A DNA stretch of 46,489 nucleotides from Candidatus Binatia bacterium (lineage in GTDB: Bacteria > Eisenbacteria > RBG-16-71-46 > SZUA-252). The notes beneath the pieces are model-generated. The model was given only the letters and a program-made list of their open reading frames with translations, had not been told where the DNA came from and did no database searches. A program made the position numbers and the translations under genes. The stretch is taken from the NCBI GenBank assembly GCA_035631035.1, contig DASQJL010000012.1:1-46489 (forward strand), read 5' to 3'. This document shows, piece by piece, positions 39,646 to 46,489 of this stretch; position 1 is the first letter of the stretch, and every line of letters begins with the position of its first letter.

Positions 39646-39753
39646 CATGACAGGTCTGGCGGGCCAAGCACCTGCGCCTAGGTTGGCCGAGGACCGGGAC
39701 GGGGCGAGCGGCTGGGCGGGCTTGGTTGAATGGCGCTCGGCAATCTGATGAGC

Positions 39754-39841
39754 GCCTGGGCCGCTGGACGGGGCTGAGCGCCGGGCCTGGGCAGCTTGGC
39801 GGGGCTGAGCGCCGCCTGGGCAGCTTGGCGGGGCTGAGCGC
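39754..39841. repeat. Minisatellite, about 30-bp unit, three copies
   Basis: Three copies beginning with GCCTGGG at 39754, 39785 and 39814 share GCCTGGGCAGCTTGGCGGGG and CTGAGCGC. Degenerate half-copies flank them on both sides. Confidence 0.8.
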
Positions 39842-39967
39842 ATGGCTGATGGGAGCCTGGGCTTGCCGAGCGCCTGGAACGGACCGGTGGCCGCCTCCGT
39901 GGCTCTGGCTCCGACGCCGGCAACGGCCGCGAGCTCGGACGCGCCGCCCTGGCCTGCTTCCGTCCTG

Positions 39968-39990: not shown

Positions 39991-40359
39991 CTTGCCCATT
40001 CCAATGAATGACAGGATGTCACACGAAAGAGCGCGGCGCGCGAGCCGGATCGGGAACTTCATGAAGCGGCGCGGCGCGCGAGCCGGGAACTTCATGAAGC
40101 AGCGGTTTCCCTTTCGGCCGCTCCATGAAAACATGGCCGCGGCGGGCGTGCCGGCAGTTCCTCCGGAGCTGAAGTGCCGTCCACGACGACAGGTGTCGCT
40201 GATTTTCACCGCTGCTAGCGAGTGTGAAACCGGCGACATCTGCCGCCCTGGATGACAGCTATGCGAGTTCCTCCTGCAGGTAGTTGCATCCTCAAACACC
40301 CCATCTTCTAAGACACCATCCTCAAGGACCCTGGCCGAGGTTTTCCGCAGCCGGGAGAA

Positions 40360-40879: not shown

Positions 40880-41021
40880 CTGCGTCGGTTGGGCCGATTG
40901 GAGACGGCCCTGCGTCGATTGCGCCGATTGGGGGATGGCCCTGCGTCGATTGCGCCGATTGGGGATGGCGCTGGCGTCGATTGCGCCGATTTCGGGGCGT
41001 GGCGCTGCGTCGATTGGGATC
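40880..41021. repeat. Minisatellite, 30-34-bp unit, five copies
   Basis: Copies start at 40880, 40910, 40941, 40971 and 41005 with the core CTGCGTCGATTGCGCCGATT. The period is 30-34 bases, so reading frame is not conserved between copies, which argues against a coding repeat. Confidence 0.85.
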
Positions 41022-41026
41022 ACCCG

Positions 41027-41082
41027 CTCCCTTCGGGGAAAGCGGCAACTCGCCCCGGGGCGAGTTAATATAAATATTAGTG
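41027..41082 (+). repeat. Dispersed two-hairpin repeat, full copy
   Basis: The first hairpin is TCCC-TTCG-GGGA (a UUCG tetraloop, 41028-41039). AAGCGGC follows, then a perfect 20-base palindrome AACTCGCCCCGGGGCGAGTT (41047-41066), then an AT-rich tail (AATATAAATATTAG). It is matched on the opposite strand at 41375-41435. Confidence 0.7.
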
Positions 41083-41107
41083 GCCGCCCCACGGCCTCCG
41101 GAACCGG

Positions 41108-41198
41108 CGGGCGCGACGAGCGGGCGCCGCGAGGGGGGCGCCACGAGCGGGCGCCACGAGCGGGCGCCACGAGCGGGCGCGGCGAGGGGCGCGACGAG
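41108..41198. repeat. Minisatellite, 13-bp unit, seven copies
   Basis: Seven contiguous units of CGGGCGCCACGAG or one- to three-base variants; the third unit is 14 bases. GC content is close to 80-85 percent. Confidence 0.85.
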
Positions 41199-41374: not shown

Positions 41375-41435
41375 TGGGCATTAATCCTTACCTTAACTCG
41401 GCCTGGGACGAGTTGCCGCTCTCCCCGAAGGGGCG
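41375..41435 (-). repeat. Dispersed two-hairpin repeat, inverted full copy
   Basis: On the minus strand it reads CCCCTTCGGGGAGAGCGGC, then the imperfect palindrome AACTCGTCCCAGGCCGAGTT (41414-41395), then AAGGTAAGGATTAA. It is nearly identical in order and spacing to the copy at 41027. Confidence 0.7.
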
Positions 41436-45771: not shown

Positions 45772-45801
45772 TGGGTTTTGTTGTCTCCTGCGGGCGGCGT
45801 C

Positions 45802-46003
45802 GCCAAAGGGGGGCCGGGCGCACTGCGTTTTGGCGCGAGGAAGGCAGCCCTGCGGGCGGACCGCCCTCCGGCCCGATTCTGCCTCGACCTTGCTCACCAC
45901 CCCGGCGGGCCTCCGGGAGGCCGCCCTCCGCGGCTGCCTTCCTCGCGTCCACAGACGCGCTGCGGCCTGCCCTCCCATCTCTCGAAGACCACCGAAGGGA
46001 CAC
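45802..46003 (+). repeat. Structured hairpin element, copy 1
   Basis: It begins GCCAAAGG..GCCGGGCGC and contains a perfect 16-bp stem, CGCGAGGAAGGCAGCC (45834-45849) with GGCTGCCTTCCTCGCG (45932-45947), enclosing smaller GC hairpins (GCCCTGCGGGC, CGCCCTCCGG). It ends in CTGCCCTCCCATC..CCGAAGGG. It is present again in inverted orientation at 46091-46261. Confidence 0.75.
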
Positions 46004-46090
46004 CCCCCCATTCCTTGTAAGTTGAACAATTCCGGCCCTGTAAGGCAATACGTCGGGCAAGGGAAAACCTGACGACCGATCCGCCTCTGG

Positions 46091-46261
46091 GTGTGCCGCC
46101 CGTCGGAGTTTTCGGCGATGGGGAGGGCAGGTCGAGACGCGATCCTTGGACGCGAGGAGAGGAGGCTACCAGACTCGAGTCAGTGTCGGGCCGGAGGGCG
46201 GCCGCCCGAAGGGCTGCCTCTCCTCGCGCAAAGAACGCGTAGCGCCCGGCTCGCCTTTGGC
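46091..46261 (-). repeat. Structured hairpin element, copy 2 (inverted)
   Basis: Read on the minus strand it has the same order of blocks as copy 1: GCCAAAGG, GCCGGGCGC, GCGCGAGGAGAGGCAGCCC, GGGCGGCCGCCCTCCGGCCC, CTCTCCTCGCGTCC, CTGCCCTCCCCATC. Its stem is CGCGAGGAGAGG paired with CCTCTCCTCGCG (46217-46228 with 46151-46162). An extra G in one arm is matched by an extra C in the other relative to copy 1. It is about 30 bases shorter in the loop. Confidence 0.75.
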
Positions 46262-46289
46262 AAGGAAGCCCGAACGGGTGCCGCAACCG

Positions 46290-46327
46290 CCAAAACGAGA
46301 AGGGCCGCCGGGTTTCCCCAGCGGCCC
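46290..46327 (-). terminator. Rho-independent terminator of the 46353 gene
   Basis: On the minus strand: stem GGGCCGC.GGG with CCC.GCGGCCC around a GAAA loop, followed by TTCTCGTTTT. It lies about 25 bases after the stop of the partial gene. Confidence 0.88.
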
Positions 46328-46352
46328 CCTCGCTACTGCCTTGCGACCAGTG

Positions 46353-46489
46353 TTACTTCACAAGCGCCATCCGGCTTCCAGACTCGGAGCCGTCGGCAAA
46401 CTTCACCTTGTAGAAGTAGACGCCGCTCGCCAGCTGCGTTCCGTCATCACGACGACCGTTCCAACGAACCTCGTTGGCACCGGCCTCGG
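46353..46489 (-). CDS. C-terminal end of a sorting-domain protein (partial)
   Basis: The last 45 codons of a gene that enters from the right edge, ending in TAA at 46355-46353. The translation, EAGANEVRWNGRDDGTQLAS then GVYFYKVKFADGSESGSRMA then LVK, is the final half of a FlgD-like/T9SS-type sorting domain (W-N-G-R-D-D, ASGVYFYKV). The protein is therefore exported, but its main body lies outside the window. It has no visible start here. A good intrinsic terminator follows. Confidence 0.92.
   Translation of the reverse strand, partial: EAGANEVRWNGRRDDGTQLASGVYFYKVKFADGSESGSRMALVK

Follow-up and report, generated by a model that had tools for sequence, protein, structure and literature searches.

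A low-copy family of long palindromic intergenic repeats arranged largely as inverted doublets in a draft bacterial genome

RIME elements are intergenic palindromes of about 100-160 bp with a long stem-loop. In the part of PMC2229807 that treats them, ERIC and Correia (NEMIS) elements are intergenic palindromes of about 100-160 bp with long stem-loops, TA ends and target-site duplications, while YPAL, or RU-2, of Yersinia is an abundant element of about 168 bp with target-site duplications of 3-26 bp. The RAYT-associated REP doublets known as REPINs have a doublet spacing of about 71-110 bp, conserved 16-mer ends and hundreds of copies (PMC3116915). REPs tagged with GTAG or CGTC occur mostly as dimers in opposite orientation, which may fold separately or as one large structure; those of the CGTC type are 20-40 bp long with stems of 8-9 bp, and have a high copy number and no dedicated transposase (PMC3733652).

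The window analysed here (46,489 nucleotides) corresponds to the complete contig C12 of a draft genome (3.35 Mb, 135 contigs, 97% complete). An earlier note, made from the sequence alone, had placed two inverted copies of one element at 45802-46003 (plus strand) and 46091-46261 (minus strand). Sequence inspection and an independent repeat search both bore this out, as units a and b were found to be the same hairpin element, inverted relative to each other (Table 1). The place of the copies was right, and only their ends had to be moved, the homology extending slightly further (about 45791-46003 and 46096-46272). The local alignment of the extended unit a with the unit on contig C4 spanned positions -21 to +225 relative to the core start.

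The repeat search also recovered the stems by which each copy had been said to fold on itself, of 16 bp in the first and 12 bp in the second. The stem of unit a (CGCGAGGAAGGCAGCC and its partner) lies inside a 42-nt arm with 74% complementarity, and the unit folded much better than dinucleotide shuffles (z = -4.67). In unit b, CGCGAGGAGAGG and the opposite arm were 100% complementary, and the fold in unit orientation was not significant (z = -1.10). Alignment with the close relative on contig C4 showed that unit b is incomplete, its inner 3' arm being shorter by about 37 nt, which explains both its shorter stem and its weaker fold. The stems vary as GAGGA-AGG/CCT-TCCTC against GAGGAGAGG/CCTCTCCTC, and the extra G in one arm of unit b, matched as the note had observed by an extra C opposite, is genuine. 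Mechanical ORFs cross the units; no reading frame is conserved and single-base indels separate the copies, in agreement with the claim that no protein is encoded. With the fold of unit a and eight further units in the genome, the repeat pair is far beyond chance.

Table 1. Positions of the repeat units and adjoining features in the window.
Feature	Positions	Strand	Basis
Unit a with 5' flank motif (CGTCGCCAAAGGGG) and tail	45791-46003	+	Inverted-repeat search; alignments; local alignment of extended units
Unit a core, 160 nt, long imperfect hairpin	45812-45971	+	Covariance model R1, 138.2 bits
Unit a perfect 16-bp stem, 5' arm	45834-45849	+	Sequence, repeat search, folding
Unit a perfect 16-bp stem, 3' arm	45932-45947	+	Sequence, repeat search, folding
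Spacer between the cores of units a and b, 155 nt	45972-46126		Not common to other pairs; common to contig C4 by segmental duplication
Unit b including flanks, opposite in orientation to unit a	46096-46272	-	Inverted-repeat search, alignment
Unit b core, 125 nt	46127-46251	-	Covariance model R1, 73.9 bits; alignment to C4
Unit b 12-bp stem, one arm	46151-46162	-	Repeat search
Unit b 12-bp stem, other arm	46217-46228	-	Repeat search
Terminator-like hairpin lying between the end of the FlgD-tail gene and unit b, separate from the element	46300-46329	-	One found against 0.9 expected in shuffles
3' end of gene with FlgD_ig/CHU_C-type C-terminal domain	46356-46489	-	Pfam PF13860, E = 4e-6; alignment

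Overall, BLAST, a motif scan and the covariance model R1, built from the genome's own copies, agreed on ten units (full or partial) at six loci, on contigs C4, C12, C42, C48, C50 and C62. The units are about 160 nt long, or roughly 200-235 nt when the flanks are included, with self-pairing of up to about 46 base pairs, and share invariant blocks at the outer end (GCCG and GCGC) and at the stem base (CGTC). Exact matches to the outer motif GCCGRGCGCNNNGCGKT, with central ACT or TAC, fell at precisely the ten unit sites, with no further element-type match in the draft genome. Four of the loci hold inverted pairs (C12, which is the window, C48, C50 and C62), while C4 and C42 hold single units. 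When ten units were placed at random 20,000 times, any close pair arose in 1.6% of the trials, and more than two pairs in none. The paired units have their 5' ends outward and their cores 138-202 nt apart, giving doublets of 456-555 bp, and the spacers are unrelated in sequence between pairs, save for a short hairpin tail common to C48b and C50b. Misassembly of an inverted duplication, named in the earlier note as grounds for refutation, was rejected, the pairs standing on four separate contigs with differing spacers and neighbours.

Each of the four whole pairs was predicted to fold best into one giant hairpin, in which 82-93 base pairs are long-range; restricting the fold to local pairing cost 71-130 kcal/mol under RNA parameters and 46-89 kcal/mol under DNA parameters. 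These folds are consistent with the proposal that the window pair could form one very large cruciform. Within pairs, identity was 79-88%, not clearly above that between loci except at C62. In the unit tree, C62a and C62b formed their own clade (100/100 support) with their own interior, as joint evolution or movement of the two halves of a doublet would predict; the tree did not resolve outside this clade, and separate clades of a units and b units were looked for in it and not found.

The family behaves like a doublet-forming palindromic repeat, with an arrangement resembling that of REPIN or BIME doublets. Extragenic inverted doublets, ends that pair into one hairpin, compensatory stem changes and a genome-specific sequence are common to REPINs and this family, and single units can be viewed as remnants in both (PMC3116915); two inverted palindromes pairing into one hairpin were found here in all four doublets. 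In contrast to the short tagged REPs of about 20-40 nt and high copy number, there are here ten units of 160 nt in far longer doublets, with no Y1/RAYT gene, and GTAG occurred, on the opposite strand, only in the TAC-type ends. Because a RAYT, a short tagged REP and a high copy number are all lacking, the family was not classified as REPIN. The invariant CGTC recalls the CGTC-tagged REPs, a match that may be due to chance. These bases are largely paired here: they sit at the foot of a 19-bp stem that encloses a long interior, and not unpaired beside an 8-9 bp stem with a loop of 4-5 nt. In size, intergenic site, inverted repeats, a composition that is not A+T-rich and the lack of TA termini, the units resemble YPAL/RU-2 as presented in the relevant part of PMC2229807, where YPAL is not described as forming inverted doublets and where target-site duplications, not found here, are reported. 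More generally, the units are non-coding, intergenic, dispersed, short and self-complementary like MITEs and YPAL-like elements, and differ from these in that the outer ends of the four pairs are not flanked by target-site duplications. RIME, ERIC and Correia elements, compared by description, are also alike in size, intergenic location and palindromic form, whereas the TA ends and target-site duplications of ERIC and Correia were not found here.

The palindrome has been maintained while its sequence changed. On the alignment of the ten units, a 46-pair structure contained 93.6% standard pairs, and seven pairs (15 cells) had changed on both sides compared with 2.7 pairs (5.0 cells) in shuffles, none of 500 reaching as high a value, so that the covariation proposed as a check in the earlier note proved significant; with further copies also present in the genome, the note's own refuting conditions did not apply. 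Slid structures gave 0-2 pairs changed on both sides, and the match between the two arms of a unit exceeded that between the 5' arms of different units. This covariation, together with stems of 16-19 bp and intergenic positions adjoining gene ends, speaks for a structured RNA or mRNA-processing element, whose hairpin would be kept since a 3' or 5' UTR transcript controls mRNA stability or termination; on the unit strand of the chosen structure, G-U cells (32) also outnumbered A-C cells (5). However, the folding energies of the two strands were about equal, with no consistent strand bias and with C42 clearly favouring the other strand, and the G-U excess is therefore at least partly inflated by a structure fitted on that strand, by one invariant G-U pair and by relatedness. 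Every paired locus, moreover, has a unit on both strands, a terminator-like hairpin of its own already follows the FlgD-tail gene before the unit is reached, and no Rfam family matched the window at gathering score. Covariation is no proof of RNA function, as template switching within a DNA palindrome can explain it: in replication, template switching creates or repairs stems, gives multibase compensatory changes and makes reverse-complement repeats (PMC8794818). An RNA element is thus unlikely, and since the units occur in both orientations, with no consistent strand bias and with a pair-level hairpin, the data are better explained by a palindromic repeat at the DNA level than by an RNA gene.

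All ten units are intergenic, as judged from the gene neighbourhoods of the six loci. The window units lie between a lipoprotein-type gene and a FlgD-tail gene, the C4 unit between a TPR gene and a FlgD-tail gene, the C42 unit between a glutamine amidotransferase/PRTase (purF-like) and a T2SSE ATPase, and the C48, C50 and C62 units between GAF-GGDEF and another gene, a sugar transferase and a PAS-histidine kinase, and an ECF sigma and a T2SSF gene, respectively. As the neighbours differ among loci, the element is to be regarded as a dispersed repeat rather than as a component of a gene family. C4 and the window have in common a segment that includes unit b, the spacer, the terminator-like hairpin and the 3' end of the FlgD_ig/CHU_C-type gene, and from this alignment the C4 unit and unit b are one segmental duplication, which reduces the independent sites to at most five. 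Contigs C4 and C12 both stop in the identical FlgD-type C-terminal coding stretch, the assembly breaking at the duplicated gene tail, which accounts for the position of the pair close to a contig end.

Local inverted duplications by template switching, followed by segmental duplication and with no transposition, would account for this duplicated segment, and template switching is known to yield reverse-complement repeats (PMC8794818). At C42, C48, C50 and C62, however, little sequence outside the unit and its short tail is common to the loci, whereas segmental duplication would leave flanks. Judged on these flanks, the process explains the relation between the window and C4, and not the other four loci; as an account of the whole family it is improbable.

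Comparisons outside the genome were made with class or phylum relatives and with family relatives, the genus being represented by this genome alone. Eisenbacteria may be the phylum concerned, since it would suit a small phylum whose members have FlgD-tail proteins. No copy was found by DNA search in 46 other genomes of the class, which are all the genomes returned for the phylum, and the covariance model with stricter filters gave no convincing copy in the same 46 genomes. Its only match outside (G013, E = 0.014) lay within a sugar-kinase-like coding frame and was taken as chance. The plasmids and phages searched held no copy, and the viral contigs no motif match. A GTDB motif scan, which may omit the window's own genome, returned seven matches in unrelated taxa, mostly Actinobacteria, none of which scored with the model at E <= 1; these too were taken as chance. 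The absence from same-family relatives, the presence of only six loci in 3.35 Mb and the lack of a recognised binding motif weigh against a protein-binding or architectural DNA site under selection (for a nucleoid protein, gyrase or a cruciform-binding protein), as has been proposed for BIMEs; the invariant blocks at the outer end and stem base and the giant pair-level hairpins would suit such a site, which nevertheless seems very doubtful.

The family is probably a low-copy, lineage-specific, non-autonomous and non-coding palindromic intergenic repeat that spread as an element, through what we infer to be transposition. Of the two possibilities raised in the earlier note, a non-autonomous palindromic mobile element is thus the one retained, the units being dispersed, intergenic, non-coding, arranged in inverted pairs and absent from relatives, while a structured RNA family is disfavoured by the occurrence of both orientations, the lack of strand bias and the lack of an Rfam match. 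The doublet would be the ancestral dispersed form, with single units as remnants or duplicates. Against a mobile element stands the low copy number for REP-like elements, and against movement as doublets stand spacers that are not common to the pairs and a tree that groups only C62.

No Y1_Tnp (RAYT) domain (PF01797) was found in the own genome or in eight family members, control genomes being positive, and RAYT-driven spread was rejected on this ground. The DDE_Tnp_1 and rve transposases, the other two families searched, were likewise absent from the own genome. The own genome looks poor in common transposases (no Y1_Tnp, DDE_Tnp_1 or rve match). Target-site duplications, suggested as a check on the copy ends, were sought at the outer ends of all four pairs, where direct repeats did not go beyond chance; the best case was C48 (shuffle p = 0.056). 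Spread of the element may have depended on a transposase since lost, or on one of a family other than Y1, DDE_Tnp_1 and rve, which would probably have acted on the hairpin in single-stranded DNA. The stems may have been kept matched by template switching in replication, one arm being corrected from the other, and any transcript would form a passive long double-stranded RNA affecting transcript processing or stability. It is rather unlikely, though conceivable, that the family is a nested palindrome, with two hairpin units making up each larger inverted doublet, that spread by an undescribed route in a transposase-poor genome, ongoing arm-to-arm correction keeping the doublets pairable.

The repeat family described here is long, palindromic and well defined, and comes from a bacterial lineage that has been little studied; it is also a clear case in which significant covariation does not amount to proof of RNA function. 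Should its mobility without a RAYT-type enzyme be shown, the family would help to explain the spread of CGTC-type repeats and other orphan palindromes.

The window also contains a second palindromic dispersed family (ACTCGTCCNGGGACGAGT-AATATATATATTA-ACTCGCCCCGGGGCGAGT), present as an inverted pair at 41029-41085 (plus strand) and 41376-41432 (minus strand). It recurs on C57, as a three-copy array with a period of about 263 bp, and on C67, C36, C82, C68 and C81. Minisatellites with periods of about 31 nt and 13 nt (40882-41018 and 41107-41193) lie beside and inside this second pair, and short tandem repeats of about 30 nt and 33 nt occur at 39753-39846 and 40033-40098.
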